Shown piece by piece: positions 10,099-61,300 of a stretch of 64,000 bases of DNA. The notes beneath the pieces were generated by a model. That model was given only the letters and a program-made list of their open reading frames with translations. It made no database searches and was not told the origin of the DNA. Both the position numbers and the translations under genes were made by a program. The DNA is from Cavenderia fasciculata (Eukaryota > Evosea > Eumycetozoa > Acytosteliales > Cavenderiaceae): contig NW_004457642.1 of NCBI RefSeq assembly GCF_000203815.1, forward strand, positions 186,001 through 250,000, given 5' to 3'. Each line of letters opens with the position of its first letter. The first letter of the stretch is position 1.

Positions 10099-13000
10099 TT
10101 ATTTATTTATTTTATCCAACTTGTACTGCATATCATTATTGAATCTTTTGGCTGTATTTTTCTTTTTAATATATACAATCGATGCTACTGCAACGGCAGC
10201 TAAACAACTGAACCCGACAACGACACCAACAATGATTCTCCATGTATTCGATTTATTGTCACATCCACTATCAGCATTCTTGTCAACTAATAATGGTGTG
10301 AAATCTGGATCGATGATGCTTTCTGATGATTGTGGCATACTAATTCCAATTAATAGAGTTGATTGATCATCTAATGAAGCAGTTTTGTTGACAATCGATG
10401 TTTTAGAGAAAGTTGGTCTTCCATCAGATAATACATAATCGATAAATCTACCTGTGAATTGAATATTATCTTTTACCACACGTAGATATTGAATAGAGTT
10501 GGATAGTTGATCGTAGCTGAGTGTATCAATATTAATATCTTGACAATCAAATTCGATTGATTGGTCATTGTTGATGGTTGTTTTGAAGATGACTCTGAGT
10601 GTTGTCAAGAATGTGTTGAATGTCCAATTACTAATGTTGACTGATAGTTTGATTGAATTGGCATCGATATGAAGTAGTTGTGAACCAAATTGAATGTCTC
10701 TTGGTTGTTGTGAGAATGATATCGTTGCTGTTACTAGTGCTGTTGTATCACTGTTGTTGAGTTGATAGTTGACTGTTGTTGTTTGTGTTTGATTATCCAA
10801 TGTTAATGTTGAATTCCAACTGTTTGTCAATACTTCGTTGATGATATTATCATCAGTGTCTATTTCTTGAATGGCAATCATTTCAAATTGGAAATCAATT
10901 CCATCGATATCAAATGATGTTGTTGGTGATGTTGTATTGGGTGTGTTTGTGTGGTTGCTTGTTTTTGTCAAACAATTATCAATTGAACTATATCCAGTGT
11001 CACAATTACATTTCCCATTGATACATTGACCATGACCATAACAATTAAATGGACATGTTACATCATTACTATCGGATCCTGAACCAGATGACTGTGATGA
11101 AGGTTTAAAATAAATCCAATTATTTCCATTATTTGTTGAATTATCAACAGTCAATCTGACCAAAGCCAAACCATCAGTTGGTTCACTGACCAATGTACAA
11201 TTAATCAATGTTTGTGATTTTGATGTAACTTGACAATCAGTATTATTCAAAGTGATTGATACAATAGTTTGATTGAATGGTCCGAAATCACCATAGATAC
11301 TGATCAATTTTCTATCATTTATATCATATTCTCCTGATTTAAAAATTGGATATTCTAAAAAAAAAATTAATATTAAAATCATTTTTAATTTTTGTAATTA
11401 TCTATACATACTCTGAGAACATTTATCAGAATAATAACCAGTATTACAAATACAAGTTCCATTAATATCACAAGCTCCATTACCTGATGAACAACCACCA
11501 TCGAAAAAGCATAAATTTTGAGGTGTTGTCAAATTGACCATTATTGGGTCAGATAAAAATCCTTCAACCGATACTGTAATATTTGTCAATCCAAAATCAT
11601 AATACCAATTTTTTTTAATGATACATCTTAATACCGAAGATGTATAGTGTGCAGGACTGCAAATGGATTGATCACCATTAAAGTATACCGCAACTTGATC
11701 GAGAGAACTATTCCCGAAAAACCCACTGAACTCATAAATTGAACCAACTTGAGTATAATTATGTAGCAAAGCTATACTAGTTAACAAAACATTTGACGGA
11801 TAAAATGCTTTTGGAAAAAAAAAAAAAGTTAATAAAATATAAATAAATTATTTTTTGTTTGAATTTAATAGTTACATGTCAAGTTAAAAGATGTGTTAAT
11901 ATTGAAATTAGAATTGAATATCTTTAGTTGCCAAATTTGATTTAGTGACATTTCGTATGCAGTGACATTGCAAGTCAATAACTGACCACTCATCAATTGA
12001 CCCACAATAATGCAATCAATTGTGTTGTTCACCTTGACGCTATGGGGAATAAATGTATTGATAAATGTAACCATGATCGATATTTGAACAACCTTGCTTG
12101 GCAATTGTCTAAACTCAACGGTTCCTGGTACCACTGCTATACCAACTTCAAGCACTGTAAAGTTGAAAGTATATTCTGGGTAAAAAGAATCCAATTGAAT
12201 AGAAACATTTTTTGCTGGACCTTCAACAGGTGGGCCATTAGTAATGTACCTATAAATTGAGATGTGTTAAAACTTTCAAGAGCGTAGTAAAATTTCTTTT
12301 AAGGTCACTTGTTTTGATAAATACCCTAACTGTTTGTTTGGAATCATTGGGTATAGACCAAAATCTGACCCAAAGTTTCCGTAGCCTATCCGTTCGCCTC
12401 GAATGATACCGTAACCTTCTATAGTATACACCATCATACTGGTAAAAGTAATATCTAGATAAGAGAGAGAGAATTAAATAAATATTAATTAATAGCATTA
12501 TCAGTTTAAATATATGTATGTGTACATACTGCAAGTAAAAGAGGGGTCTAGAACAATGTCTGTTGAAACATACTGAGTATGTCTTTGGTAGCAAAGAAAA
12601 CATTCAGGTACAACGGTGATACCAGGACACTCTGTAATATGTATTCTATTATTACAAAATGATTCTGGAATGGCAGTTGTTAACCCTGGATTGTTTGATA
12701 TATCCAAATCGATATTATTTGCATTATTAAATGCAGTCCAAGGGATTTCACCTTGAAAATTGTTTCCTGGTAATTCTCTATAAATAAATTAAATAAATAA
12801 ATAAATAAATAAATAAAAAAGAATATAATTTCTTGACATACAATTTTCTAACATTATAAATTGGGATGTTTGGGAAAACAGTGTAATCACTGTTTGCTGA
12901 TGTTAAAGTTTGTAGGGTTTCAGGATATACTAAAAGTGGGAATGTTGTCAATGGAGAAGAATTTGTTACCCTAAAAAAATAAATAAACAAACTATAAGTA

Positions 13001-14387
13001 TCGGCCAGGCTAACTAACCATTAGTTCATGATACATACAAATTTGTAAGATTTTTGAAACCACTTAATAAAGGTGTAATATTGTTTGAGTATCCCAATAC
13101 AGTCCTATATATATAGTTTACGTTTGTGATGAGTGATAATTGATTTAATTAATTAAATGATAATAGGCAAAAGATGATTGATGATATAAACTTACAAATC
13201 AGTAATATAACTTGTATCTATAAAACGTGCAGTTGTTTGAGAGGAACCAGAAAAGACACTAATAAAGTTTGATAAAAGAAATTAATAATGAATGTTTTTT
13301 ACATATTTGCTAATTGTTGCATATATATAAACTTACACCTTATTCAATGACATTACACTTATATCTACAGTCAGTGATTCAGTTGATGTTGATGTTGGAT
13401 AAAGGATGAGCTGGTTCAGCATTGGGAATGATGAACTTGTAAATTCTAGCAAGAGAGATGACATAAGTCTCATACTCAAGGTAAGAGAGCGCAAATTTGG
13501 GTGGGGTGGTGTAAGATCATTGATCACGGCTCCTGTAAATGCAATGTCTAACCTTTCAATCGTATTTCCAAAATCAAAGGTCGCTGGTGGTTGGATGGTC
13601 GATCCTGCAATCATCAGATAATTGAGAGCCGACAGTCCCGCTTCAATGGGAAAGGTCGTTGGGATTGAAGTAATCGATGTATCCTGATAGATTCTATATA
13701 GATAGAGGAGTCAATCGAATTGAAAAAGTTAGAAGAAGAAGAAGTAAGAAGTCTTTGACACAATCGTCGTGATTTGGTATACATACTCAATCTTTGTCAA
13801 TAAAGGCATATTGCTGAGAAAACTCAAAAGATTGAATGATGGTGTCTTAACTAAAATAGCTACAATGTACAAACTTGTTAGTTGAGGAAATTCCAAGGCA
13901 CTCAATCCTAAACCTGCAGGTGATAAACCAGTACTAGTTGATGGGTAAACATTAAAGTTTCTAGGCAACGAGAAAAAGAGGTGATTATAAGTTTTAAATA
14001 TCATTCGACACAACCTTTTTAGGTATCATATATGATCTTTACATTTTAGTGATATGAGGGACTGAACCTGTCGAACAAGTAAACAACGTTGAACTACAAA
14101 TAGATGTTTGGTCTTCTGCCAACTGACTACCGTATTGTCTAATGATCCATTTTGCAGAGTTTACTATATTGTATACATAGATAGAGAGATAGATATAAAT
14201 GAATGATGGATGATTTGTTAATTGTCATGATCTTTCTTTCTTTTTTTCTTTCTTTGTTGTAATACATACATTCTGCCACAGGCATTACCTGACTTTGTAC
14301 ATGGCTGACTTTACATATTAACAACAATAAAGCACATATAAATAAATGATTCCAATGATCATCATATTTTTTAGTGCTGATTTTCAT
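10099..14387 (-). CDS. Array gene A: LRR-TIG-EGF-TIG-EGF-ComC-like membrane receptor, 1143 residues
   Basis: Twelve exons fit GT-AG borders: 14270-14387, 14043-14163, 13787-13960, 13337-13693, 13196-13258, 13039-13104, 12842-12970, 12530-12777, 12325-12454, 11876-12249, 11412-11807 and 10099-11354. Their sum is 3432 bases, exactly 1144 codons with stop. The protein has a signal peptide (hydrophobic LFICALLLLICKV, cleaved near SQVMP), a leucine-rich region to about residue 425 (pattern LP.L..F....., then IPESFCNNR and a Cys-rich cap PECFLCYQ), a beta-rich block (469-593), TIG-like 1 plus EGF-like 1 (594-725), TIG-like 2 (about 735-815), EGF-like 2 (826-853, CPFNCYGHGQC), a supersandwich-like domain (about 870-1090), a membrane helix (about 1098-1121) and a basic tail KKKNTAKRF. 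Extracellular receptor or adhesin; ligand unknown. No lesion seen. Confidence 0.87.
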
Positions 14388-14827
14388 AATCTGATTATTT
14401 GTTTTTATTTATTTATTATATTTTATCGCTCTTTCTCTGTAGATATAAATATTGTTAATGATCATTTCTATCATTTGGCTTCTAGAAACCAACTAACATG
14501 TGCTATTCAGTGCAAGGATAGAATTTCGTATCTTCAAACTAGTACTCATCAACGTTTCTACTTTAACCAATATCCTGATTTGCTGAAATATCTAAAATGA
14601 TTTCAAAATCTGCAAATATTATAAATAGCCCGTAGATCTTTCAACATAAATTGGTGTCTTGGATAATAATCTTTATTATTAAATGATAATGATATTAAAT
14701 GATATTGTAATTCATTGTGGCATACACAGCATTTTGATGTATTGCAATTAGTATGGTTGATTGATCAGTGGTCGGGGTACGCAAACAGATATTTGTTGGG
14801 CACGACTCCAATAGTTTATTTATTATT
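14388..14827. other. Spacer between array genes A and B
   Basis: A/T-rich intergenic DNA of 440 bases holding the upstream region of A and the 3' flank of B. A GAAATATCTAAAATGATT stretch near 14585, about 195 bases above the A start, resembles the AATATCTTGATT motif upstream of other array genes. Weak open frames here look like chance. Confidence 0.5.
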
Positions 14828-17800
14828 TTACATTGTCGATAGTTTATGTTGCATATTCTTATTGTGTCTTTTAATAATTCTTTTCTTTTTAATCAATATA
14901 ATCGATGCTACTCCTATGGCAACAGCACCTGATACTCCAACAACGACACCAACAATAATTCTCCATGTATTGGATTTACTGTCGCATCCACTATCGCTGC
15001 TCTTGTTATTTAATAATGGTGTGAAATCTGGATCGAGGATGCTTTCTGATGATTGTGGCATACTTATTCCAATAAGTATGGTTGATTGATCATTTGAATC
15101 GTCAGTTTTGTTGACGATTGATGTTCTAGAGAATGTTGGTCTTCCATCTGATAATACATAATCGATAAATCTACCTGTGAATTGAATATTATCTTTTACC
15201 ACACGTAGATATTGAATACTCTCTGACAATTGTTCATACGTCAATGTATCAATATTAACATCTTGACAATCAAATTCGATTGATTGGTCATTGTTGATGG
15301 TTGTTTTGAAGATGACTCTGAGTGTTGTCAAGAATGTGTTGAATGTCCAATTACTAATGTTGACTGATAGTTTGATTGAATTGGCATCGATGTGAAGTAG
15401 TTGTGAACCAAATTGAATGTCTCTTGGTTGTTGTGAGAATGATATCGTTGCTGTTACAAGTGCTGTTGTTGTTGTTGTATCACTGTTGTTGAGTTGATAG
15501 TTGACTGTTGTTGTTTGTGTTTGATTATCTGTCAATATAGTTGAGCTCCAACTGTTTGTCAATACCTCGTTGATGATATTATCATCAGTGTCTATTTCTT
15601 GAATGGCAATCATTTCAAATTGGAAATCAATTCCATCGATATCAAATGATGTTGTTGGTGATGTTGTATTGGGTGTGTTTGTGTGGTTGCTTGTTTTTGT
15701 CAAACAATTATCAATTGAACTATATCCACTATCACATTTACACTTCCCATTGATACATTGACCGTGACCATAACAATTAAATGGATATGTTAATTCACCA
15801 CCACTGCCATCACTGTCAGACCCAGAACCTGATCCCTGTGATTGTGAAGGTTTAAAATAAATCCAATTATTTCCATTATTTGTTGAATTATCAACAGTTA
15901 ATCTAACTAAAGCCAAACCATCAGTTGGTTCACTGACCAATGTACAATTAATCAATGACTGTGATTTATATGTAACTTGACAATCAGTATTATTCAAAGT
16001 GATTGATACAATAGTTTGATTGAATGGTCCGAAATCACCATAAATACTAATCAATTTTCTATCGTTTAAATCATATTCTCCCGATCTAAAAGTAGGATAT
16101 TCTAAAAAAAAAAAAAAATATTAATATATTTATGTTAATTTTTGTAGTAATTAGTCTCTATTATACATACTCTCTGAACATTTATCAGAATAATAACCAG
16201 TATTACAAACACAATTTCCATTTTCATCACACGTACCATGACCCGAACAACCAGTAGTATTACACAAACTTTCAAGTGATGATAGATTGGCAAGTATTGG
16301 AGCTGACCAAAACCCATCGACAGATATAGTAATATTTGTCAAACCAATACCTGACCAATATTTTGTTTGGGTGCATTGTACATTATCTGTGTCTTTAATC
16401 ATCACTGTGCAAATAGATGGGTCACCATTGAAATAAACGACCAGCGTTCCACCTCCATTTCCAAACTCTCCATTAAATATATAGTTTGAACCAACCTTGA
16501 TTAAACTATCATAATAAAACAAGGTTACATTTGATGGATAAAATGCTAAATAGAAATAATATTAATATTAATAAAAAAATCAATGAAATAATGAAATAAA
16601 AATCGATGAGGACGATAGTTACCGGCAATATCTATCAATAAGTCTTGTGAAAAATATCCATTTGAAATGGAAAAGCTGACTATATCATTTCTTTTAAATG
16701 ATAAACCAGTAGTATTACAATTAAAGTAAGTGTTAAGGATAATTGCACCATCTACAATACAATCAATTCGACCATTAATTTTAAAAGTATGAGGAAGATA
16801 TGAATTGAAATTAAAGGCATAGGCCACGAATTGAACGACGCCTGTTGGTAATTGTCTGTACCATGGTGACAACATATCAATGCCGATTTCCAAAACAGTG
16901 AAATTGTATGCATATGATGGGTACATTGCATCCAATGTAAGCTCGATAGTTCTTGGTGGTCCAACTTGCTTTAATGTATCCGTGAACCTTGAAAGTAATT
17001 ACAAGTAGACAATAGATACTGGTAAGTTTTAAACCAATAACTGGGTTTTTTTTATACATACTGTAAATATTTGTTTGGAATGATAGGTCTTAACAAGTAT
17101 CTATTGTTTATAGTATTTCCGTACCCTATAAGACTACCAGTCACGTTGCCTTTTCCCATTACTGTATAAATCATGGTTGAATCCAAAGCAATATCTGAGA
17201 TTGATGAATGTTAATTAAAATTGGTAGCACAAACTACAATATAATATAATCTATTTATATTTGATCAACATACTGCATTGAAAATTAGGACCGGGAATAA
17301 CATCGGTTTGAACGCTTTGAGGACTCAATCGGTAACAAAGGAAACACTCTGGAACAGTTGTAATACTCGGACATCCACTGATAAACAATCGGTTAGAACA
17401 AAATGATTGTGGTACTGAGGTTGTTGTTATTAAAGGATTGTTTTTAACATTAAAAATAATGTTTTTTGTATTATCAAATCTATTCCATGGAATGGTACCT
17501 TGTAACTTGTTGTTTGGGAATTGACTATTAAAAAAAAAAAAACCAATTAATAAATTAAAATAAATATCGATATGTAAACAACATACTAGGATGTAAGTGA
17601 TAATGGTACATTTGGGAATGTAGTTAGGTTTCCGCTTGATGCTTGAATCGTTTTGAGTGAATTGGGATACGCTGACAGGGGGAACTCTGTAAATGAGGCA
17701 GATGTGAATATCCTATAGTTGCAATTGAATTGGTTAGTATATCATCCAGTGGGTTAGAGTAGAGGTGCACCGTTACAGTATACATACAATGTATGTAAAT

Positions 17801-19119
17801 TTGTGAAACTAGTTAGTTGGGTTAAAAGATTTACAGTGTACTGATACGCTGATAATGTCCTGTTATTTGAAAGAAAAAGAAATTAATAAATTAATAAACA
17901 ACAAAGTGGTTGTATAGTTATAACTAATACTTACAATGAAAGGACGGATTGAGGTGCTGAAAAGGATAGATTTACTTTGCTTCCTAGTGTTGCTAAATGA
18001 CTATATTCGACAAGAGTGAGAGAGAGAGAGTTAGTTAATAATTAATTATTAAAAATAGAATATATAGATGATAATTACAAAATGGATATTGGAGCATTGA
18101 TAGCGACGTCCAACAAAATATTGTCGTCATCATAGTTGGGATACAAGGTAAGTGAATATAACTTTGGGAATGTTGCTGCTTCAAACAAAAAGGATTCAGA
18201 GGATGGTAAGATGAATGTAATGTAGAGGTCTTCCAAGTTGGTATGTATAGGTGTGGTGGCACCGATCGATAATCTTCCCATTAGATAAAACTTGACCGTT
18301 TGAACGGTTGGACCAAAATTAAACGAGAGGTTTTGTTGGATCACACTACCCTCTAGACGAAAGGTAGTTAACTTGGGAAGTCCCATTCCAATCACTGTTG
18401 GTATCGTAGTAATTGATCCATCAGATCCGATTCTATTAAAATGAAATGAAATCAATTAATAATAAATATGCTTTTCTGTCTATCTATATATATATATATA
18501 TATATCTGTCAATTTACTTACTCTATGACTTTAAGAGAAATTGAATTAGGACCAAGATAATTTAGAATATTGAGAGACTCTGTCATGATCGTTTCAGCAA
18601 AGATCTTTAACTCTACCAACTCGGGAAAGAAAAACTCTGCTTGTGCGGGATTTGGTAATGCTCCAGTTGTTGTTGATGGGTATCCAACAAGGTTACTATA
18701 TAAAGAGTAAAGAATATCAGTCGTCACGAGTACTAAATGATTCAAATAAATAGATTTTATATAATATAAATATACAATTTCAATACACTTACATGAAGGT
18801 GATATGTTCTTTAGTTGCTGAACATGTAAAGAACCCAGAGTTACAAATAGATGTCTCATCTTGTGGGATAATACTGCCGTATTGTCGAATGATCCATATT
18901 GCAGCGTTTAGATGTTATGTTGAATGATTAGGTCATGGTTGATGATGATATTTAAATGATTATATTTTATATATATACATATTTATATGTATAGTGATGT
19001 ACAAAATAATAATATGAATACTTACACTCTGCAGGAGGCAGCAACTGACACTTAATCTGTGTGAAACATAAAAAAAGAAATAAAATATGAAAAAAATATC
19101 TTTTTTGGTGGTACGCCAT
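14828..19119 (-). CDS. Array gene B: ComC-like membrane receptor with one lost splice acceptor
   Basis: Same 12-exon plan as gene A. The start at 19119 is chosen because it opens a signal peptide (hydrophobic ILFLFLCFTQI) that reads straight into the family motif CQLLPPAEC before a GTAAGT donor; this first exon is very short. Last exon is 14828-16101, the TIG1/EGF1 exon 16171-16545 and the beta-rich exon 16623-16987. EGF-like 2 lies about 15730-15790 and the membrane helix about 14890-14960, followed by KKKRIIKRH and a tail ending STM. All exons are open, but the acceptor of exon 2, AG in every other copy, reads TC here (plus-strand GA at 18911-18912), and no AG lies close upstream. Splicing of this intron may use another site or fail, so B may be functional, mis-spliced or newly dead. 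Confidence 0.75.
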
Positions 19120-19389: not shown

Positions 19390-19475
19390 ATTTATTTAAT
19401 TATTTATTTTTATCCAATTTGTACTGTATATCTTTATTGAACGTTTTGACTGCATTTTTCTTTTTAATCAATATT
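19390..19475 (-). pseudogene. Relic of an A/F-type receptor tail downstream of gene C
   Basis: About 85 bases match the 3' end of genes A and F (coding for a tail like KRFNNDMQYKLDKINK plus the basic stop-transfer run) but lie about 75 bases beyond the stop codon of gene C, which has its own different tail. It is a scar of a former gene end, left by unequal recombination or by replacement of the 3' end of the resident gene. The rest of 19120-19550 is A/T-rich spacer with a TTAAAATATCTTGATC motif at 19249-19265, about 130 bases above the B start. Confidence 0.65.
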
Positions 19476-19550
19476 ACTCTATTGATAAATCGTTATATAT
19501 TGTGGAATTAATAATAATGAATATATTTATTGGTTTTTAATGAATATCCT

Positions 19551-22500
19551 TTAAGACATTTTTGCTAATTTTTGTTGCATATTCTTATTGTGTCTTTTCG
19601 TAACTCTTTTCTTTTTAACCAAAATAATTGATCCCGCTGCAATGGCAACAGCACCAACAACTCCGACAACTACACCAACGACGATCCTCCATGTATTGGA
19701 TTTACTGTCACATCCACTGTCAGCACTCTTGTCGATTAATAATGGTGTGAAATCTGGATCGAGGGAACATGATTGGCATTGTGGCATACTTATTCCAATT
19801 AATATAGTTGATTGTGATTGACCATCTGACGAAGCAGTTTTGTTGATAATCGATGTTCTCGAGAAAGTTGGTCTTCCATCAGATAATACATAATCGATAA
19901 ATCTACCTGTGAATTGAATATTATCTTTCACCACACGTAGATATTGAATAGAGTTGGATAGTTGATCGTAGCTGAGTGTATCAATATTGACATCTTGACA
20001 ATCAAATTCGATTGATTGATCATTGTTGATGGTTGTTTTGAAGATGACTCTGAGTGTTGTCAAGAATGTGTTGAATGTCCAATTACTAATGTTGACTGAT
20101 AGTTTGATTGAATTGGCATCGATATGAAGCTGTTGATTGCCAAATTGAATGTCTCTTGGTTGTTGTGAGAATGATATCGTTGCTGTTACTAGTGATGCTG
20201 TTGTTGTATCACTGTTGTTGAGTTGATAGTTGACTGTTGTTGTTTGTGTTTGATTATCTGTCAATATAGTTGAGCTCCAACTGTTTGTCAATACTTGATT
20301 GATGATATTATCATCAGTGTCTATTTCTTGAATGGCAATCATTTCAAATTGGAAATCAATTCCATCGATATCAAATGATGTTGTTGGTGATTTCGTATTG
20401 GGTGTGTTTGTGTGATTGCTTGTCTTTGTCAAACAATTATCAATTGAACTATATCCAGTATCACATTTACATTTCCCATTGATACATTGACCGTGACCAT
20501 AACAATTAAATGGACATGTTAATTCACCACCACTGCCATCGCTATCTGACCCTGAACCTGATGACTGTGATGAAGGTTTAAAATAAATCCAATTATTTCC
20601 ATTATTTGTTGAATTATCAACAGTCAATCTGACCAAAGCCAAACCATCAGTTGGTTCACTGACCAATGTACAATTAATCAATGACTGTGATTTATATGTA
20701 GCTTGACAAACGGTACTATTCAAAGTGATTGATACAATAGTTTGTTCGAATGGTCCGAAATCACCATAAATACTAATCAATTTTCTATCATTTTTATCGT
20801 ATTCTCCTGATGCAAAAGTAGGGTATTCTAAAAAATAATAAAATTAATATTAATATATTTCCATTATTGATATAATAGTGTGACATTATTTTCTATATAT
20901 ACTCTTTGAACATTGATCAGAATAATAACCAGTATCACAAACACAATTTCCATTAATATTACAGGTACCATGACCCGAACAACCATTATAAGTACACAAA
21001 CTTTCAAGAGTTGTCAAGTTGGCCATCATTGGAGCGGATGGGAAACCTAGGACTGTTAATGTAATATTTGTCAACCCAATACCTGGCCAGTATTTTGCTT
21101 GGGTACATTCAACTTCAGTCGAAGTTTTTACAGTTACAGTGCAAATTGAAGGATCGCCATTAAAATAAACGAGCACCGTATCTAATGTAGTTGTTCCAAA
21201 GGATCCAAAGAATAGATAATTTGAACCAACATTGATTAAACTATCCCATGATATTAATACTACATCGTATGGATATAAATCTAATTATAAAATGAATGGT
21301 TAATATAAACATTTAATAGATTCTTACATTCATCAATTATATGTTGTTGAATAATATATTTACTTGGAATATCAAATTCTTTGTTAAAACTATAATATTG
21401 ATTGGAAACTGTTAATGTGAGATGGTCATTGCTTTTTAGATTTCCATAAACTGTACAACTCATTACACCACCTAGAGTTGGTACGGTTGGGTTAATACAA
21501 TCGATAGTACTATTTAATTTGACAGTGTGTGGCAGATAATTATTTATATAAGTTGTTGTAAAAGAAATAATGGTGGCATATGATGCGACCTGAGAATACG
21601 ATACACCACCAGACAAGTAAATTCCAACTTCTAAAATAGTAAAGTTAAATTGGTAGGCAAATGGATACATTTTATCCAATGAGAATGTAGCATTTCTTTC
21701 TGGACCTGTAGGGATAAACATATCATATAAACTATTTTAAAAAAATAATCAGAAGTAAGTATTTTAATTTTAAAAAAGTACAAAGATAATAATAAAAAGA
21801 TTGATTGATAAATTACCTTAGATGTTTGTTTGGAGTTATTGCAGTTAAATAATATCGACCATTCACCACGTCATCTCTTCCATATCCAATGTTTAATCCA
21901 GTAATGTTTCCCCTCCCAGATACAGTATAAATCATTGTTGTATCAATGGTAATATCTGGAAAGAGTAGATTCAAAATTAATTATTAATTTGGCATATTTG
22001 TTTAAAAAAAACAATGTTTGTTTACATACTGCATTTAAAACCAGCATCGAGGACAATATCAGTTTGAACATATAAAGAATTCTTTTGATAACAAAGGAAA
22101 CATTCAGGTACATTGGTAATCAATGGACACCCTTTAATATACAATCGATTATTACAAAATGATTGTGGAATCGATGTTGACAACGCAGCATTGTTTCTCA
22201 CATCAAGAAGGATATTATTTGCATTTTGGAAATTCGACCATTGAATTCCACCTTGAAACTTGTTATTTGAATATTTTCTATATTTTATATTTGATGGTTT
22301 TCAAAAGAAGATGGTTGGTTTAGTTTGGTAAATATTAATCATGGGGTATTTGTTTTTAGATTACATACAATGAGTTAACATTTTTTAATGGAATGTTTGG
22401 GAATACTGTAAAGTTACTATTGGTAGCTTCCACGGTAGAAAGGGAATCTGGGAATTGGGTTAACGGAAATACAGTTTCTACTGAGCGAGAATAGGTTCTA

Positions 22501-26189: not shown

Positions 26190-26356
26190 CTTGAATTTAT
26201 ATAAATCTGATGAACAATGATCATGATTATACAAATAAGAACGCTCATTCTTATAGACGTCAAAAAACTTGGATAGAGCGGATTATCACTGATCTTCAAG
26301 TTTATTATTTTTCCTTTTTTATTATTCCCTTTTTTTATTCAAGAATGGATCAGAAG

Positions 26357-36340: not shown

Positions 36341-36516
36341 CTACATTGTTGAGAGTTTATGTTGCAACAAGTCTTATTGTGTCTTTTAATAATTCTTTTC
36401 TTTTTCATTAATATAATCGATGCTACTGCGATGGCAACAGCACCAACAACTCCAACAACAACAACAACGATTCTCCATCTATTGGATTTACTGTCACATC
36501 CACTATCATTGTATCT
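36341..36516 (-). pseudogene. Relic of a B-type receptor 3' end between genes E and F
   Basis: About 175 bases match the end of gene B (tail, membrane helix and start of the preceding DSGCDSKSNTWR region on the coding strand), but they lie directly beyond the stop of gene F and stop abruptly at about 36516. F has its own complete, A-type end. The relic includes an altered tail and an extra AAC repeat. It is the second such leftover in the array and marks a recombination joint. The neighbouring 36165-36340 is spacer upstream of E. Confidence 0.7.
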
Positions 36517-36533
36517 AGAATTTATGCATTTAT

Positions 36534-39233: not shown

Positions 39234-39280
<47 letters not shown>

Positions 39281-48700: not shown

Positions 48701-50138
48701 GCTGGCTATTATAATTGATTGTTTGTTTATATTAGTCCTTTCATGAGTCAAAAGAATAAGATACCTCTCCCGAGCCATAGTGTACTTACAGATTTCTGAT
48801 ATTAAAAAAGCTGTTGAGTGGAGGTGATATTGTTTCGAATGTCCCTGTTACGACCCTTTGTTTTAAATAATTAAAAGGAATTTTAAATATTAATAAATTA
48901 ATATTCTCTTTCTTTCTTTCTTTCTTTTTACATACAAAGTATTGATAGATTCTGGATAATTAAAGAACAAGCTGCTCTTGATATTGTCTTGGAGGGGTAA
49001 ATAAACACTATAGGATTGATAGATAGATTATATGTTAACACATCATGATGATATAAATATTTGTATATATATATATATACAGGCCGGTACTTACAATTGG
49101 AATGGTTTGGCATCCATCGTTAATGAAAAGGGATGATGATCAGTGGCATAATTAGTCACTACCTCTGTACTAGATGTTTGCAACACTGGGAAGGATTGGT
49201 GTGGGATTGTTAAGGCCAATTGGGTACTTGGCAATCGCAATTGAAGATTAAGTGTGTTCAGCATGGTATGAACGATGCTTGGATCAAACGACACATAACC
49301 ATTAACAGGAATCCTTACCTGTTCAATGACAGGTCCAAAGTTAAATGGTACCATGTCTTGTATGAGATAAGTTCCTTGGATCGTCAAAAATTTTAAAGAT
49401 GGTAATCCGATTGTATATCCCTCTGGGATTAAAGTGACAGATGCATCTGATGTAATTCTAATTTAGCAAAGAGTTAAATAAATAAAAGAATAAGGTTAAT
49501 TAATTTGAATATAGATAATCTCTCGAGTTAAGTATACTCTAACTTACGTGATTTTACTAATGACAGGCATATTAATATTATTGATGAAAGTTAGAATGTT
49601 TTTACTACCCAACTTTACCAATTGTAAAGCCCTAATTTGTATCTCTGCCATCTCTGGGAAATCAAATGCAATCAATGAGGGATCAGGTAACAAACCAGTA
49701 GTCGTTGTATCGTATGTAAACATGTCACTTTTACAAAAAGAGGGATTGTTAGAATTCATTTTCACATCTAAACTCTTTGACTAGTAGATAGATAGATATT
49801 CAACAACATACATTTTAGTGATATGACGAGTAGGTGTTCCCGCCGTTGAACATATAAAGTTACCTGAACTACAAATAGCTGCTTCATTCTCTTGAATCGT
49901 ACTACTGTATTGTCTAATGATCCATATTGCTGAGTTTACTAAATGTGCATTCAATGAAATGATTGAGTAAATAAATAAAGATAACAACAACATTTTGGTT
50001 GATTCATTTAACTAAATGAATGATATACATACACTCTGTCGTTGACAATTGACATTCTACTACATGATTACTGTTAAAAATAAATAATACTAGTATTAAT
50101 ACTAAAATCCTCAAACAAATGAATGATGTTAGATTCCT
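45795..50138 (-). pseudogene. Array gene H: ComC-like receptor lacking a start codon and with an in-frame TGA
   Basis: Exon plan as in A. The first exon aligns with that of I, but the ATG position of I (MKQTSF) reads AGG here (50136-50138), and no other in-frame ATG lies upstream before the A-rich tract. The signal segment (ILVLILVLFIF, ECQLSTTEC) is otherwise preserved. Leucine-rich exons about 48260-49730, beta-rich exon about 47590-47970, TIG1/EGF1 about 47130-47510. The last exon has TGA at 46353-46355 in DANSIKLSV, identical in context to G, then an open frame to the helix and tail KKKRMILQFN. The N-terminal half is closest to I while the nonsense codon is shared with G, so H is mosaic. 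Confidence 0.75.
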
Positions 50139-50290
50139 TTCAACACATATGTAGCTTTTTTTTTTTTTTGGATGTATATTAATCTTTTTTTTCTATTTAT
50201 TTATTTTTGATTACTTGTTAACAATCAAGCAATAAAGTGATGGACAGGATCCAGCCACGAGAAGGACGAGGGTGTGTTTATAATACTATC

Positions 50291-50461: not shown

Positions 50462-53400
50462 TTATTTGTACTGTAAACTCATTCTAGCGAGTTTTTGTTG
50501 CATATTCTTATTGTGTCTTTTAGTAACTCTTTTCTTTTTAATCAATATAATTGATCCCACTGCGATGGCAACAGCACCGAATACTCCAACAACAACACCA
50601 ACAATGATTCTCCACGTATTGGATTTACTGCACCCACTGTCATCACTCTTGTCGATTAATAATGGTGTGAAATCTGGATCGAGGGAACATGATTGGCATT
50701 GTGGCATACTTATTCCAATTAATATAGTTGATTGTGATTGATCTTCTAATGAAGCAGTTTTGTTGATAATAGATGTCTTGGAGAAAGTTGGTCTTCCATC
50801 AGATAATACATAATCGATAAATCTACCTGTGAATTGAATATTATCTTTTACCACTCGTAGATATTGAATAGAGTTGGATAGTTGATCGTAGCTGAGTGTA
50901 TCAATATTAACATCTTGACAATCAAATTCGATTGATTGGTCATTGTTGATGGTTGTTTTGAAGATGACTCTGAGTGTTGTCAAGAATGTGTTGAATGTCC
51001 AATTACTAATGTTGACTGATAGTTTGATTGAATTGGCATCGATGTGAAGTAGTTGTGAACCAAATTGAATATCTCTTGGTTGTTGTGAGAATGATATCGT
51101 TGCTGTTACTAGTGCTGTTGTATCACTATTGTTGAGTTGATAGTTGACTGTTGTTGTTTGTGTTTGATTATCTAATGATAATGTTGAATTCCAACTGTTT
51201 GTCAATACTTGATTGATGATATTATCATCAGTATCTATTTCTTGAATGGCAATCATTTCAAATTGGAAATCAATTCCATCGATATCAAATGATGTTGTTG
51301 GTGATGTTGTATTGGGTGTGTTTGTGTGATTGCTTGTTTTTGTCAAACAATTATCGATTGAACTATATCCAGTATCACATTTACACTTCCCATTGATACA
51401 TTGACCGTGACCATAACAATTAAATGGACATGTTAATTCACCACCACTGCCATCGCTATCCGACCCAGAACCAGATGACTGTGATGAAGGTTTAAAATAA
51501 ATCCAATTATTTCCATTATTTGTTGAATTATCAACAGTCAATCTGACCAATGCCAAACCATCAGTTGGTTCACTGACCAATGTACAATTAATCAATGTTT
51601 GTGATTTTGATGTAACTTGACAATCAGTACTATTCAAAGTGATTGATACAATAGTTTGATTGAATGGTCCGAAATCACCATAGATACTGATCAATTTTCT
51701 ATCATTTAAATCATAAGATCCTGATCTAAAAGTCGGGTATTCTAAAAAAAATAATAAAAATATTATTAATATATATATTTAAATTTTAATTCTCTGTTTT
51801 AATACATACTCTCTGAGCATTTAACAGAATAATAACCAGTATCACAAATACAAGTTCCATTAATATCACAAGATCCATGACCCGAGCAACCAGTATTCAG
51901 ACATTCACTCTGTGGTGTTGTCAAATTGGCAAAGATTGTATTTGAACTAAAACCATAAATTGATACAGTGATAGCCTTCATTCCGTATTTCAAAGTTTTT
52001 GCTTGTGTACATTCAACTCGTGATTCATTGAGCCAAGTGACACTACAAGCAGATATATCACCATTAAATGATACAACAACATCTGACATTGATGCACTTG
52101 CTCCAAAATAACCATTAAATGCATATCTTGTACCGATGATACTCAAAGTATCTAAAATGTACAACTCGACATTTGATGGGAAATAGTCTATTGAAAAAAA
52201 AAGATTAATATAACATTTAAAATGTACATTGATTCATTGTGGGATAGTTACTTTGGAGGATAAAATAACTATCAACAGAGTAATGAGCATTTGAAACTGT
52301 GAATGTAATATTTTGACCTTGAGCAAAATAGTAGCCAACGGTGTTACAATATAACATACTAGTCGGTGCCAATGTACTTGTAATGACACAATCAATGTCA
52401 TGATTAATTTTGACGGTGTGTGGGAGTGTTGGATTGATTAGATGTATAAAAACATAGAATCTACAAGTCTCTGAGGGAAGTTGTGTGAGTCCCAAGGAAG
52501 AAGCCCCGAGTGAAATGCCAACTTCTAGTACTGAAAAGTCATACTGGTAATCTGGGTAATTGTTATTCAAAGATAGAGTGACTGTTCTTGCAGGTCCAGA
52601 TTGTCCCGACGTATCATAATACCTGAAGAAAAAAAATGTAATTAGAATAATGATATCATTGTGTTTGATCAATAGAAATAGACATACCTTAAACGACTGT
52701 TTGGAATAATAGGGTTCAAAGAAATCCCATTACCCATCATGTTATTGCCAAATCCAATGTTTTCACCAGAAATTTCTCCTAATCCACCCACTGTTAGAAT
52801 AGTTGTGGTATAAAATGAAATGGCTAGAAATAGAAAGTGAGTTAATTAGTGTTAGTTTTATAAATATAGTCAGGTGACCATTAATATATTAATATATTAA
52901 TATTAATACATACGACAAATGAAACTTGGATCAACAACAATATCAGTTTGAATAATGGATGGATCATTTTTGTAACATTTAAAACAATCTGGCAAATTGG
53001 TAATGCTGGGACATCCATTAATTCTCAAACTGTTTTTACAAAATGACTGTGGAATGGTGGTGGTAACTAATGTTGGGTTGTATCTCACATCGAGAATAAT
53101 GTTTGGGTTTCCACTTGTAAAAATGTTCCAAGGAATATCCTGTAACTTGTTATTTTGGAATTGCCTAAATTCATTTTATATTATTAATAATAAAGCCTTA
53201 TTGTTATTTTTGTTGTTGTTGTTGTCGATACATACATTAATTGCACATTCTTGAATGGAATGTTTGGAATTGTGGTTAGATTACCATGAGTTGATGCAAG
53301 TGATTGAAGGGATTCAGGGTACTCTGCAAGTGGAAACTCTGTATAATTAGCCCCGGATATTAGACTAGATTGATTGATTGTCAGTCATTGAAGAGGTAAA

Positions 53401-54863
53401 CTTAAAAAGTAAAGTATAATTCAGCTCGAGCTAGTACTTACAGAGATCTGAGATTAATAAAATCGATCAGTGGAGGTGATATTGTTACCAATGGCCCTAA
53501 GATAGATACTTTAAAAAAAAAAAAAACATTTAATATTAATATTAATTTTCGCTCATTAATCCAATTCGTAATCATTGTTCTTTCTTTCTTTCTTTCTTTC
53601 TTTTTTTCTTTCTTTCTTTCTTTCTAGCTTATACATACAAACCCGCGACAGAGTCTGGATAATTAAATATCAAGTTGCTGCTCTTGGCTAGGAAGGATTG
53701 AAAATTTCTAAATAAGAATAATATAGGATCGATCTGTTAACATCATCATCATATTTTTCATCAACTCTGGCTGTTTAAAAAAAATAAAATAAAGTACTTA
53801 CAAGTCGGTTGGTCTTGCACCTAGGGTTAACGAAAAGGTATGGTCAGTGCTTATTACGATCATACCCAAAGTTTGCAATACTGGGAAGGCTTGGTCTGTG
53901 ATGGTTATGGCTAGGGGACTGGTAAGTTGCATGCTAATGGAGAGTGCATTCAAATTGGTATGAGCGATGGTTGCATCAAACGTCACGGTGCCTTGAATTG
54001 AAAATATCACTTCTTCAACGACCGGTCCAAAGTTAAATGGTATCATGTCTTGTATGACATATACTGATTCGATATGAAAAATTTTTAAAGCTGGTAATGC
54101 TAGTACGAATCCATCTGGGATAAGAGTGACAGATGCATCCGATAGGATTCTAATCATAAATAGGAGGAGGAAGAGGAGGAGGAGGAGAGGAAGTTAATAT
54201 TAACAAAAATAAATAGATTTGTTTGTTAGTTTGTTTGTTTGGTTCAACTTACGAGAGTCTACCAAGAAGAGGCATATTCTTGATTAAATTTAGAATGTTA
54301 GTGTTAGGCAATCTGACATTAAGCAACGCTGTCAATTGTATTTCATCGACCTCTGGGAAATCAAATTCAGTCAACAAGGGATCAGGTACCAGACCAGTCA
54401 TCGCTATATCAAATGTTTGAAAGATACTATATAGTAATGTTAGAATGTGAAATAAATCAAAACAACCTAAACTACTTTGATTTCTGAGCTCGGATACAGA
54501 TAATATAATATTATACAACAACATACATTTTAGTGATATGACGAGGTGTTCCCGTTGAACATATAAAGTTACCTGAACTACAAATAGCTGCTTCATTCTC
54601 TTGAATCGTACTACTGTATTGTCTGATGATCCATATTGCTGAGTTTACTAATGATGATGATTCATAAATAAAGAAATAATAAATGTAATGAATGATGAGC
54701 GAGGGTATGGTGAGTAAATAATAAATGATTTCATTAAATAAATGAGGTACCAATACATACACTCTGTAGTTGACAATTGACATTCTACTACATGGTTACA
54801 GTTAAAAATAAATAATAGCAGTACTGCAATCAACTGAATGAATGATGTTTGTTTCATTGCCAC
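50462..54863 (-). CDS. Array gene I: ComC-like membrane receptor, apparently intact
   Basis: Gene A plan. Start at 54863 (MAMKQTSF) or 54857; the signal segment is LIAVLLLFIF followed by ECQLSTTEC. Leucine-rich exons about 52920-54420 with diverged versions of the family cap (IPQSFCKNSLRINGCP; PDCFKCYK), beta-rich exon about 52250-52625, TIG1/EGF1 about 51810-52185 (SFNGDISAC, a variant shared with H in place of YFNGD.SIC), last exon 50462 to about 51738. CQSCS variant before DPDFTPLL; tail KKKRVTKRHNKN followed by a small extension SLQYK. No break seen. Confidence 0.83.
53580..53625. repeat. (CTTT)n microsatellite in an intron of gene I
   Basis: Two runs of CTTT units separated by a T-rich interruption, within the intron upstream (in gene order) of a leucine-rich exon. 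On the coding strand it is a purine-rich tract. Confidence 0.85.
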
Positions 54864-55022: not shown

Positions 55023-55053
55023 TTAAATATCTTGATTTAAACCCACCAGGACC
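55023..55053. promoter_or_regulatory. Candidate promoter element upstream of gene I
   Basis: TTAAATATCTTGATTTAAAC followed by CCACCAGGACC, about 160-190 bases above the I start. Very close to the block upstream of J and related to that of H, while surrounding spacer is dissimilar. Confidence 0.45.
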
Positions 55054-55110
55054 ATCATAGAAAAATAATTATTTATTTAGTTATTTTATTAGTGTTGGCT
55101 CATAGTACTG

Positions 55111-56703
55111 TTAACTCATTCGAGCGAGTTTTTGTTGCATATTCTTATTGAATCGTTTCGTAACTCTTTGGATAATCGATGCCACTACAATTGCAACAGC
55201 ACCGAATACTCCAACAACAACACCAACAATGATTCTCCATGTATTGGATTTGCTGCATCCACTATCATTGCTCTTGTCGATTAGTAATGGTGCGAAATCT
55301 GGATCGAGGGAACATGATTGACATTGTGGCATACTAATTCCAATTAATATAGTTGATTGTTGATCATCTGATGACGAGGCAGATCATTTGATGATGAAGA
55401 AGTTTTGTTGATAATAGATATCTTGGAGAAAGTTGGTCTTCCATCAGATAATACATAATCGATAAATCTACCTGTGAATTGAATATTATCTTTGACTATC
55501 GTAGATATTGAATACTTTATATACCGTTTTTGGTAAAAATATTAATATTAATATTCTCTCTCTCTTTTGAAGTACAATTCCTGGAAAGTTTCCGGATGAT
55601 TAAATATCAAGTTGGTGTTGGTTCGGATAGATCCATAATAACTATAGGAATAGGATAGGTTATATGTTAGCATCATCATCATCATCAACGAAAAACATCA
55701 AGTACTTACAAGCTATATGGTTTTGCATCCATGGTTAAAGAAAAGGTATGATCAGTGTCTAATACATCAATATTAAATCTTTGCAACACTGGGAAGGATT
55801 GTTGTGTGATTGTTATAGCTTGGGGACTTGTCAATCTCATGCTAATTTCGAGTGTGTTTGAATTGGTAGAAACCAAGTTTGGATTAAACGTCAAGGATCC
55901 TTCAATTTTGAATTTCACTTGTTCCATGAGTGGTCCAAAGTTAAACTCCATATCTTGTTGGGCGTAAATTCCTTGGATTGCCAAAAATTTTAAAGATGGA
56001 AATGCAAGTGCAAATCCGTCCGGGATTACATTGATAGATGCATCTGACGTGATTCTAATTAAGCAAGGTTATAAATAAATAAATAAGAAAGATGATGATT
56101 TGATTAATAAAACAATATTTAAGTTAGAATATTGACATTGATCGATTTAGGATTTTCGGCAACTACGATTTGAATTTCCTCCATCTCTTGGAAATCAAGT
56201 GCAGTCAACAAGGGATCACATACCATACCACCAATTGTTGTGTCATATGAAACAAGAATACTAATATATAGGTATAATAATTACAAACAACAAACAAAAG
56301 AGAGAGAGAGCATGTTAGAATGTGAATTTTCAAAACAATCTAAACTTTAGTTACAAAATAACAACATACATTTTAGCGATATGACGAGGTGTTCCCGTTG
56401 AACATATAAAGTTACCTGAACTACAAATAGCTGCTTCATTCTCTTGAATCGTACTACTGTATTGTCTGATGATCCATATTGCTGAGTTTACTATAGTATC
56501 ACATCATACATAACAATATATATAAATGTTAATATTGCAAAGAAAGGTGGTGTTGATCACATTTAATACATAATGATAAAATAAATGAGGTACCAATACA
56601 TACACTCTGCAGTTGACAATTGACATTCTACTACTACATGATTACTGTTAAAAATAAATAATAGCAGTACTGCCATCAACTGAATGAATAATGTTTGTTT
56701 CAT
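55111..56703 (-). pseudogene. Array gene J: ComC-like receptor with its middle deleted
   Basis: The 5' part is present: start at 56703 (MKQTLFIQL, then VECQLSTAEC), exon 2 about 56371-56493, a degraded third exon about 56120-56270, the long leucine-rich exon 55706 to about 56056, and a partial small leucine-rich exon near 55570-55640. The sequence then passes at about 55510-55560 directly into the last part of the final exon (RRPTFS-like segment, helix, tail to 55111). So the remaining leucine-rich exons, both TIG and EGF modules and most of the supersandwich-like domain, about 3 kb, are missing. Near 55380 a short segment is duplicated (GATCAT.TGATGA), and the basic run after the helix is shortened to QRVTKRFN. 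A clear deletion pseudogene whose 5' part is close to I. Confidence 0.85.
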
Positions 56704-56833
56704 TACCACACACCTTATCTTATACTTTACTCACAAATTTTATGTGTGTGGTTAGTTTTCGAGTGGTCGTTCACAACCTCGAGGTTTGAACTGCATCTGT
56801 TGGGTAGGCATTTGAGTCTACAGTGTCGTACAC

Positions 56834-56864
56834 TTTAAATATCTGGATTTTTAAACCAGGAACC
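56834..56864. promoter_or_regulatory. Candidate promoter element upstream of gene J
   Basis: TTTAAATATCTGGATTTTTA followed by AACCAGGAACC, about 130-160 bases above the J start. It matches the blocks upstream of I and H. Retained even though J is a pseudogene, consistent with recent decay. Confidence 0.45.
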
Positions 56865-59760
56865 AACAAAAAAATAATAAAACGAACGAAGGGTTTTGAA
56901 CCATTTATTTATAGTGTATTTTTAATTCATATCTCAACCCATTCTAGCAAGTTTATGTTGTATTTTTGCGTTGTGCCTTAGAACAGTTCTTTTCTTTTTA
57001 ATCAATATAATAGATGCCACTGCAATGGCAACAGCACCAACAACTCCAACAACAACACCAACAATGATTCTCCATGTATTGGATTTACTGTCACATCCAC
57101 TGTCAGCACTCTTGTCGATTAATAATGGTGTGAAATCTGGATCGATGATAGATTCTGATGATTGTGGCATACTAATTCCAATTAATATAGTTGATTGTTG
57201 ATCATCTAATGAAGCAGTTTTGTTGATGATTGATGTCTTGGAGAAAGTTGGTCTTCCATCAGATAATACATAATCGATAAATCTACCTGTGAATTGAATA
57301 TTATCTTTTACCACTCGTAGATATTGAATAGAGTTGGATAGTTGATCGTAGCTGAGTGTATCAATATTAACATCTTGACAATCAAATTCGATTGATTGGT
57401 CATTGTTGATGGTTGTTTTGAAGATGACTCTGAGTGTTGTCAAGAATGTGTTGAATGTCCAATTACTAATGTTGACTGATAGTTTGATTGAATTGGCATC
57501 GATGTGAAGTAGTTGTGAACCAAATTGAATATCTCTTGGTTGTTGTGAGAATGATATCGTTGCTGTTACTAGTGCTGTTGTATCACTGTTGTTGAGTTGA
57601 TAGTTGACTGTTGTTGTTTGTGTTTGATTATCTATCAATATAGTTGAGCTCCAACTGTTTGTCAATACCTCGTTGATGATATTATTATCGGTGTCTATTT
57701 CTTGAATGGCAATCATTTCAAATTGGAAATCAATTCCATCGATATCAAATGATGTTGTTGGTGATGTTGTATTGGGTGTTACTGTATGATTGCTTGTTTT
57801 TGTCAAACAATTATCAATTGAACTATAACCTGGTTGACACTGACATTTCCCATTGATACATTGACCGTGACCATAACAATTAAATGGACATGTTAATTCA
57901 CCACCACTGCCATTACTATCTGACCCTGAACCTGATGACTGTGATGAAGGTTTAAAATAAATCCAATTATTTCCATTATTTGTTGAATTATCACAGTCAA
58001 TCTGACCAATGCCAAACCATCAGTTGGTTCACTGACCAATGTACAATTAATCAATGTTTGTGATTTATATGTAGCTTGACAATCAGTATTATCCAAAGTG
58101 ATTGATACTGCTAACTGATTGAATGGTCCGAAATCACCATAGATACTGATCAATTTTCTATCATTTAAATCATATGATCCCGATTTAAAAATTGGATATT
58201 CTAAAAATTTATAATAATTATGATTAATATATATTTAATTTAATTTTTTAATTTAATTATCTATACATACTCTCTGAACATTTAGCAGTATAATAACCAG
58301 TATCACAAACACAAATTCCATTTGAATTACAAGTTCCATGACCCGAACAACCAGTAGTATTACAAATACTTTGAGGTGATGTCAGATTGGCCGAAACGAT
58401 ATTTGACATGAACCCATCAACCGATACTGTAATATTGGTCAATCCAATTGCTGGCCAAGGTTTGACTTGAATGCATTGAATTGCACCAGAATCATAGGTA
58501 GCTGGGAGACAGATAGTTGGATCCCCATTAAAATAGATAATAGGTTTGGCTATTCCGAAATACCCATTTAATAAATACTTTGATCCAACCATTACCAAAT
58601 TTTCCCACATTGTTAAATACAAATCAACAGGGTATAATTCTATAAAAAATAAAAATGAATAAAAAATATTAAAATCTGTAGAGAGTTATTTTTTTTGTTT
58701 TTTAACATACGTGGGGTTGTAAAACTTTTAGTTAGATTGGTGTAACCATTGCTCAATATATATTGATAGGTTTGAAATGATTTGAAAGGTGTTCCTGTCA
58801 CGTTGCAACTCAAATCAGATGAGCTTGCCACTGTGCTAGAAATGACGCAATCAATATTATTGTTTATAATGACAGCGTGTAAAAGATACCCATTTATAAA
58901 TTGAGTATAGAGTGAGATCTGGTAGACACCAGATGGTATTTGTTGAAAGGTAACTACACCAGGAGCTTGTATACCGACCTCTAAAACATTAAAATCTGCT
59001 GTATATTCTGGATAATTACTATCCAAAGTAAGAGTAACAGTGTTTGGTGGTCCAGTTGGTCTTAAAGTATCAAAATATCTATCGACATAAAAAAATATTT
59101 AAAGAATGAATTAATAATTTTGATTTTAATTTTTTTTCTATTTTTCGTAAACATACCTCAGTTTTTTATTTGGTATGGGAGAATCTAAAACGTATCTACC
59201 CAGAGCCATGTTACCATACCCAATGTTAGTACCTTCTATGAAACCAACTCCTATCGATGTATAAATATTTGTTGAAACAAAAGTAATGTCTTGAAGTGAA
59301 AAATATAAAATATTGTTAAAATTTACTCTTTTTTTTTTTTTTTTATATCTACATACTGCATTTAAAACCAGCATCGAGGACAATATCAGTTTGAACATTC
59401 TCAGTACTCTTTTGATAACAAAGGAAACATTCTGGCACATTGGTAATCAATGGACACCCTTTGATATACAATCTATTTACACAAAATGATTGGGGGATGG
59501 ATGTTGTTAATGCCGGATTGTTTGTGAGATCCAAAAGCATATAAGTTGAATTGATGAAATTGTTCCATGGAATGTCTCCTTTAAGCTTATTATTAACATA
59601 ATGCATGGCCTGCACATTGTTTGCAGGAATATCTGGAAATGTATCGAATTGAAACCCATTGGACACACGAACATATGTCAATGAGTCGGGGTACTCTATG
59701 AGTGGAAACCCTGTCATATTTGAATATTGTAATATCCTAAATATAAAATAATAATAATAT

Positions 59761-59807
59761 AAATAATAAATAATAAATAATAAATAATAAATAATAAATA
59801 ATAAATA
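59761..59807. repeat. (AAATAAT)n seven-base tandem repeat in an intron of gene K
   Basis: About 6-7 near-perfect heptamer units, a length-variable intron tract. Confidence 0.85.
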
Positions 59808-59993
59808 AGAATTTTAATTTTAAACCTATTTGAATATTATTATTTATGTATGATACATACAAAGTGACTAAATTTTTAAATTCACTCAATGGAGGTAAAA
59901 AAGTGGTGGCACTACCAGAGTAATGACTGTGATCAACAAATAATAATATTAAAGATAGTTAGTTAGTTAGTTAGTACCAGTTTTGTTTGGGAA

Positions 59994-60057
<64 letters not shown>
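59994..60057. repeat. (ATT)n microsatellite in an intron of gene K
   Basis: About 21 uninterrupted ATT units between two leucine-rich exons. Confidence 0.95.
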
Positions 60058-61300
60058 TAAACATACACAATAGTAATATTCGATGTATCTGAAAGCAGTA
60101 TATTGACTGGTGAATCCAATGTGATTACCGCTCTATAATATAAAATCGTTGTAGTAGTAGTAGTAGCAGCAGCAGTGGGAGAGAGAGAGAGTTAATATTA
60201 TTATAATTCTAATTATTCTAAAAGGTATACTTTACAGATTTGTGACAGTGGAAGCATAGGACGTGACAGTCATAACATTTGGAGGCGTAGATACGAGATA
60301 GAGACTCAAGCTATCCAATACTGGGAATGACTCTGCTGTAAATGTCAAACTTTGTGCTAAAGCACCACCAATATGAAAGTACACCTTTTTCAATTTAGAG
60401 TGGACTGGTGTATTTGCATCGATTGTAAATCCTCCAGAAATCGAACTCAATGACACCTCTTCTATAGCAGGTCCAAAATCAAAAGTAAATGGTAGAGATA
60501 ACTGACCACTCACAGAGAATAAAGTTAACTTGGGTAACCCTACCATTGGTGGTATAGTTGTAATTGAGAAATCTGAAATGATCCTATAATTTAAAATCAA
60601 AAAATAAAAAAAGAAAAGAAAGAGTTGTAAATATATACTACATACATAGTACTGCTTTGCTTTGCTTTGTTTTGTTTTTGCCTTTACTTGATAGTTTGAA
60701 GATTATCTAGATTCTTGATTAAATTCAGTATATTGAGAGATTCTGTTTTGACTGTAGAGTCCACATTTATGTATAAACTCTCAAGTTCTGGGAATGAAAA
60801 TGTTTGTAATGCTGCATTTGGTGATTGGCCATTGTCTGTTATATCAAAAAGAGACAATAAACTAAATATATATATCAATATATCAATATAGTTTGATTGT
60901 ATTAGTTATTGAACGTGAAATCAACTGACTAGATCTAGATCAGATAGATAGATAGATAGATACAACTACAACAACATACATTTGAGTGATATGACGAGGT
61001 GCTCCCGCTGAACAAGTAAAGTAACCTGAACTACAAATAGCTGCTTCGTTCTCTTGAACCGTACTCTTGTATTGTTGAATGATCCATATTGCTGAGTTTA
61101 CTAAATATAGTGTTTATATAATGATAGAGATTAATATTATGAATGAAATAATGAGAGAATGAAATTATGAGTTAACCCAACAACAACAACAACATACGTT
61201 CATCCACTGGCATAGGTTGACTTGACACTCTATCGATCGCATTCACACAGAGTATGATCACCACACCGATACTTAACAAAAATTTCAGCGCTACTTTCAT

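Follow-up and report, generated by a model that had tools for sequence, protein, structure and literature searches.

How can neighbouring genes of one family differ almost completely at one end and remain nearly identical at the other? The question is raised by a 64,000-nucleotide stretch of the social amoeba Cavenderia fasciculata (C17:186001-250000, where C17 is contig NW_004457642.1), which we call the window and number from its first letter. It carries ten long copies (A to I and K) and one deletion remnant (J) of a putative surface-receptor gene, in tandem and all on the minus strand. We found that the predicted leucine-rich repeat (LRR) heads of these copies have diverged, whereas the last exon, which encodes the membrane-proximal base, has stayed alike. 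Our preferred reading, which we hold at a probability of about 0.6, is that the array presents varied recognition heads on one common base, kept near-identical likely by gene conversion confined to the array.

Layout of the array

The copy models come from our own gene prediction and spliced alignment within a genome of 31.0 Mb in 21 contigs. A sequence-only reading of this DNA had placed eleven minus-strand copies at 10099-61300, and these bounds were confirmed, with the stop of copy A at 10099 and the ATG of copy K at 61300. That reading also gave all eleven a common module plan over 12 exons. The 12-exon plan was read directly in A, C, and I, and the models of some other copies merge or split one exon; J is without most of the modules. 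The long-copy models (n = 10) comprise 1134 to 1170 codons, laid out as a signal-peptide exon, head exons, further exons up to exon 11, and a last exon of ~1.27 kb. This exon 12 encodes TIG-like and EGF modules, the ComC supersandwich domain (SSD), and the transmembrane segment. The copies are predicted to be single-pass membrane proteins with an LRR head, TIG-like and EGF modules, the SSD, and a short basic tail, which is, as had been proposed, too short for an enzyme domain. NCBI annotates near-identical C. fasciculata proteins as EGF-like or hypothetical, for example DFA_09547 (A) and DFA_09558 (I). The best NCBI protein matches are P0006 for A, P0004 for B, P0001 for C, P0003 for E, P0002 for F, P0007 for G, and P0005 for I. 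The copies are the following.

10099..14387, minus strand: copy A, intact as read, 12 exons; exon 12 at 11354-10099
14828..19119, minus strand: copy B, open, ATG at 19119; in-frame acceptor of exon 2 absent as read, no GT-AG intron leading in frame into that exon; exon 12 at 16101-14828
19551..23886, minus strand: copy C, intact as read, 12 exons; exon 12 at 20827-19551
27093..31321, minus strand: copy D, broken; exon 12 frameshifted near 27680 and the tail disrupted near 27145; end nominal
31556..36053, minus strand: copy E, frame open; exon 1 without an in-frame ATG as read, start nominal
36534..40879, minus strand: copy F, intact as read; ATG at 40879
41152..45521, minus strand: copy G, broken in exon 12 by a frameshift near 42254 and a TGA at 41712
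45795..50141, minus strand: copy H, broken; exon 1 without an ATG (start nominal), exon 10/11 junction out of frame, TGA at 46355 in common with G
50462..54857, minus strand: copy I, intact as read, 12 exons; exon 12 at 51741-50462
55102..56703, minus strand: copy J, deletion remnant with the signal peptide and early head exons, then a piece of SSD, transmembrane segment, and tail
56934..61300, minus strand: copy K, broken; its exon 12 carries a frameshift near 57994

Divergent heads and a uniform base

We compared the long copies in all 45 pairs (J was left out of all pair counts), using silent divergence (pS) and amino-acid-changing divergence (pN). Mean pS was 0.55 to 0.67 in exons 1 and 3 to 10, where silent divergence is near saturation. 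It was lower in exon 11 (0.49) and exon 2 (0.38) and lowest in exon 12 (0.20), which also had the lowest mean pN (0.06). The switch is sharp and falls within about the last 100 bases of exon 11. Nucleotide identity was 0.56 over exons 1 to 10, 0.68 in exon 11, and 0.93 (0.894 to 0.961) in exon 12 as far as the end of the SSD; it drops to 0.81 in the transmembrane segment and tail and to 0.36 to 0.45 past the stop. Intron 11 had an identity of 0.58 (shuffled letters, 0.38), and the other ten introns had identities of 0.29 to 0.43 (shuffled letters, 0.23 to 0.33).

In the heads, pN/pS was about 0.6. No excess of amino acid change was found there: pN exceeded pS in 5 of 69 test windows in the pairs C-D, F-G, and H-I, where averaging could hide single sites, and divergence in the other pairs approaches saturation. 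Between distant heads, patches of low divergence were few (38 of 2730 test windows), and exons 2 and 8, which form the two ends of the LRR head, accounted for 36. In some distant pairs, these two exons had lower silent divergence than the middle of the head; in exon 8, K closely resembles C and D.

Probable gene conversion of exon 12

The pS of exon 12 did not follow that of the heads (Spearman 0.17, p 0.28). For the head sisters CD, FG, and HI, head pS was 0.27, 0.27, and 0.35 and exon-12 pS was 0.16, 0.19, and 0.18; AE and EI had head pS values of 0.60 and 0.64, yet their exon-12 values were 0.098 and 0.100. Nearest neighbours within exon 12 differed region by region. A Sawyer-type test on 68 silent variable codons gave a summed squared run score of 9879, which none of 500 permutations (7941 ± 404) reached; in the same test, the longest single run was weaker (p 0.03). 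G and H have in common a stop codon (41712 and 46355) and an adjacent silent change, AAC-TGA, despite their distant heads, and the other eight copies have AAT-TCA.

A gene outside the array was compared with its members. At C4:551.9-556 kb lies a full-length sister of copy B with one frameshift (locus L033, C4:550501-557500). Its head is close to that of B (pN 0.19, pS 0.29) and distant from the other nine (pS 0.59 to 0.69). In the SSD, its pS was 0.36 to B and 0.30 to 0.38 to the rest, and in the TIG-EGF part of exon 12, it was 0.36 to B versus 0.28 to 0.39 to the others. Exon 12 of B itself differs from those of other array members by a pS of 0.13 to 0.22. Because the SSD of the C4 sister is as far from B as from the rest, this out-of-array copy has not been homogenised with the array. 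The SSD of a third relative, on C18, stands at a pS of 0.48 to 0.55. The NCBI protein P0027 contains only the SSD part of the C4 sister, fused to ankyrin repeats.

These patterns point to array-confined gene conversion of the membrane-proximal base as the likely cause of its uniformity. The sequence-only reading had described a repertoire turning over by birth, death, and exchange. The exchange is real; its main target is the membrane-proximal exon, which it renders uniform, while the heads diverge.

ComC arrays elsewhere in the genome

We scored 150 of 282 candidates from a genome-wide ComC_SSD search, and all 150, on 18 contigs, were matches, so that the count is a lower bound. With an array defined as a same-strand cluster of at least 3 genes spaced less than 12 kb apart, 7 clusters hold 45 of the scored matches; there are also 17 pairs and 71 single matches. 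SSD pS was low against head pS in all seven clusters tested.

Window array, 10 genes: SSD pS 0.16, head pS 0.62
C17b array, 11 genes: SSD pS 0.25, head pS 0.69
C1 array, 5 genes: SSD pS 0.19, head pS 0.69
C14 array, 6 genes: SSD pS 0.29, head pS 0.63
C3 array, 3 of 4 genes: SSD pS 0.12, head pS 0.47; middle region also uniform (0.10), unlike the others
C5 array, 5 of 6 genes: SSD pS 0.15, head pS 0.61
Seventh array, 3 genes: SSD pS 0.095, head pS 0.52

Gene models for the other arrays came from a simple predictor and carry errors at their ends. Models below 700 aa were left out of the six-array test (one of four in C3 and one of six in C5), and a two-gene block of C3 (863-869 kb) and the genes at C17:452-461 kb stood outside the array test. 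Between arrays, SSD pS was 0.49 to 0.67 (15 pairs, with one representative from each of six arrays). Since pS is low inside arrays and high between them, the base is alike within an array and different between arrays. Further arrays may exist beyond the seven. Four ComC_SSD proteins, P0019, P0095, P0107, and P0121, are named or listed as Nudix, Obg-like ATPase, tetracycline-efflux, and DNA polymerase delta proteins, and these may be adjoining genes fused by annotation.

Domains and folds

ComC_SSD was above the Pfam cut-off in all 10 long copies in a six-frame search (matches from C17:196297 to 243129). Pfam scans also covered full-length C and I and parts of A, B, E, and I. The ComC supersandwich domain (PF22933) scored 88 to 92 bits in A, B, C, and I and 78 bits in E against a cut-off of 24 (E-value about 1e-25). 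EGF_2 scored 33.2 bits in C and 24.7 bits in I against a cut-off of 22.1, with two stretches in each copy, located before the SSD, and one transmembrane helix is predicted after it. TIG reached 16 to 19 bits against a cut-off of 20.9 where it was reported, with no match in full copy C. Of the three domain types that the sequence-only reading had named for a profile search, EGF and the ComC supersandwich are above their cut-offs and TIG is below. Two TIG-like modules, the number it had given, are a minimum according to the structure model, because ~390 mostly beta residues lie between the LRR and the SSD; the IPT/TIG domain 3n50_E matches the exon-12 model (77 columns, 3.4 Å, E 0.018). On this Pfam comparison, membership in the Tgr family was not adopted, as TIG is below the cut-off.

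Models and fold searches support an LRR solenoid in the head, a fold it would have in common with plant LRR receptors, Toll-like receptors, and internalins; no Pfam LRR model was above its cut-off in full copies C and I. A whole-model Foldseek search returned plexin, contactin, and other Ig/IPT proteins with E down to 1.5e-7. We do not take this list as proof of domains, because the query TM score was at most 0.16 among the 50 matches listed.

The modelled SSD agrees with the supersandwich luminal domain fold, and its closest solved structure is GLMP. No sequence match to GLMP/NCU-G1 was found, with no PDB profile match to E 10 and no NCU-G1 match among 16 SSDs to E 5; an NCU-G1 search of the C. 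fasciculata genome gave 0 matches, and its search control was likewise silent. We know of no LRR-TIG-EGF part in GLMP. The resemblance is one of fold, and GLMP is described as a lysosomal protein, the accessory subunit of the transporter MFSD1 (PMC11252000, PMC6819133).

Turnover of the copies and neighbouring genes

About half of the copies had been called intact. Read strictly, from ATG to stop with GT-AG introns, 4 of 11 are (A, C, F, and I), and read leniently 6 are, adding B and E. In the spliced models, 9 of the 10 long copies have neither stop nor frameshift in exons 3 to 11, the exception being H. We considered whether lesions gather in exon 12 and dropped the idea: of the distinct lesions, five are in that exon (two in D, one each in G and K, and the TGA common to G and H) and four are elsewhere (the acceptor of B, the start of E, and the start and exon 10/11 junction of H).

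Three pieces of tail stand without a gene.

36373..36525, minus strand: scar of transmembrane segment and tail, downstream of F (tblastn E 6e-11)
19409..19486, minus strand: tail scar in the interval from C to B, downstream of C (tblastn E 3e-6)
26363..26425, minus strand: tail remnant 0.7 kb past the interrupted tail of D (tblastn E 2e-5)

These scars, remnant J, and the rearranged tail of D make birth, death, and rearrangement visible. Together with the stop common to G and H and the Sawyer-type test, they uphold the view of a family in which sequence is gained, lost, and exchanged.

The DNA that interrupts the tail of D (26425-27145) has pieces 90 to 98% identical near the C1 start and at C1:1388 kb, like a dispersed repeat. 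Three other reading frames lie in or beside the array.

24237-26282, minus strand: 681-aa open frame between C and D, no Pfam match at E 0.1
1124-3343, plus strand: separate opposite-strand gene flanking the array, with DUF7035, DUF7034, and ComC_SSD above cut-off and weak EGF matches
3813-6542, minus strand: 909-aa open frame beside the array, with weak ankyrin matches below cut-off

Relatives and comparable systems

We made three protein searches, all word-limited, and for that reason do not claim absence outside C. fasciculata. In the first, 33 of 33 matches were from C. fasciculata. A profile search gave 40 matches, 4 of them from C. fasciculata, and says little on distribution, because most of the others were plant LRR proteins. 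A search with the SSD region gave 94 matches, of which 83 were from C. fasciculata and 11 from other dictyostelids. Literature searches found no account of this array, its conversion, or homogenised ComC arrays.

The ComC family (PF22933) has the same SSD, preceded by an EGF module and followed by one predicted transmembrane helix. The relatives P0128 (D. firmibasis) and P0130 (D. cf. discoideum) are listed with EGF models and with PF24141, which is likewise assigned to plant LRR receptors. Unlike the known ComC family, C. fasciculata has many copies (at least 150), partly in tandem arrays with a homogenised last exon. The comC gene itself is counted among developmentally essential genes, and its conservation is listed as limited to group 4 dictyostelids (PMC4931340), so its role is not simply transferable to C. 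fasciculata, a group 1 species.

The tgr family, with TgrB1/TgrC1, is likewise described as a large, duplicating, recombining, TIG-containing surface-gene family with many partial copies. In D. discoideum and its relatives, intact tgrB/C genes are described as conglomerates, and tgrB is shortened or deleted at 13 of 25 tgrBC loci (PMC12324515). That description includes no LRR head or SSD and has recombination spanning the gene length and mixing variants, whereas in the C. fasciculata array exchange chiefly makes the membrane-proximal exon uniform, and TIG does not reach its Pfam cut-off. A second parallel is mammalian TLR1/TLR6, reported as tandem LRR receptors in which the C-terminal part, including the transmembrane domain, is converted and the N-terminal parts diverge, and for which the authors invoke shared binding partners (PMC2077338). 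TLR1/TLR6 are two genes with an intracellular TIR domain, whereas C. fasciculata has up to eleven genes per array, no signalling domain, and seven arrays. The present case joins tgr-like duplication and TLR1/TLR6-like C-terminal conversion in a different family.

What the heads and the base may do

In the reading we prefer, conversion inside the array would keep the membrane-proximal exon uniform while the heads diverge, and the proteins would be displayed on the surface during multicellular development, for which RNA-seq of C. fasciculata exists (PMC5457571, PMC4931340, PMC5097433). Different heads would bind different cell-surface ligands, of kin or of prey; this recognition role is inferred from the sequence. 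The common base, SSD and helix, may dock on a shared membrane partner, by analogy with GLMP on MFSD1. That GLMP is the closest solved fold suggests such a partner, and docking on it would explain both the short tail and the need for a uniform exon 12. A more far-reaching version seems to us unlikely, and we offer it tentatively: each ComC array would be a library of variable LRR heads on an array-private uniform base acting as a GLMP-like adaptor to one common multi-pass partner, a modular recognition system whose variable-constant layout would be produced by genome structure alone.

A special case of the preferred reading is that the heads recognise prey bacteria or parasites instead of kin, so that the family would be a set of innate-immune or phagocytic receptors sharing one base. 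We consider this possible but less likely than not. The fold that the head would have in common with plant LRR receptors, Toll-like receptors, and internalins speaks for it, as does the same split between converted and diverging ends in TLR1/TLR6; ComC is, however, cited as important for intercellular communication (PMC8865844), and its listing as developmentally essential also argues the other way.

It is also conceivable, though we are doubtful, that the conversion has no recognition meaning: in a redundant adhesion family, heads would drift and conversion would persist only where constraint keeps similarity high. The head pN/pS of about 0.6 with few test windows above 1, the strictly intact state of just 4 of 11 copies, and the 71 of 150 scored SSD matches that stand alone are all consistent with drift. 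Against it are the exons 3 to 11 free of stops and frameshifts in nine of ten long copies (spliced models; H excepted) and the retention of tandem arrays in seven places.

Sharing by way of reverse-transcribed mRNA with a 3' bias would place the uniform tract near the 3' end, where it is, and intron 11 is indeed less alike than its flanking exons. This route is nevertheless disfavoured by intron 11, which is present in all ten long copies and more alike than the other ten introns, and the similarity gives out in the tail and 3' flank, parts that a cDNA would normally include; we judge it very improbable. Equally improbable to us is an assembly artefact in which reads of look-alike exons were pooled or exchanged: D, G, H, and K do have several of their lesions in the near-identical exon 12, but this exon differs at 4 to 11% of sites between copies, and seven arrays behave alike. 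Strong constraint without conversion would fit the low pN of exon 12 and is rejected by SSD silent sites that are near saturation between arrays and far apart from the C18 relative, with exon-12 distances independent of head distances and mosaic runs also counting against it.

Meaning for dictyostelid recognition

To our knowledge, kin recognition in social amoebae has been worked out mainly for TgrB1/TgrC1 of D. discoideum, and we know of no kin-recognition genes in C. fasciculata. Here, a distant dictyostelid has seven gene rows showing the split expected of a receptor repertoire, with differing heads and an apparently constant base, and it resembles TLR1/TLR6 in how tandem LRR receptors retain a common part. 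The idea of a shared partner is the most testable part of this reading: the array offers testable annotated genes (among them DFA_09547, DFA_09548, DFA_09552, DFA_09555, and DFA_09558) and one exon with which to search for such a partner, and the C4 sister of copy B is a natural control.

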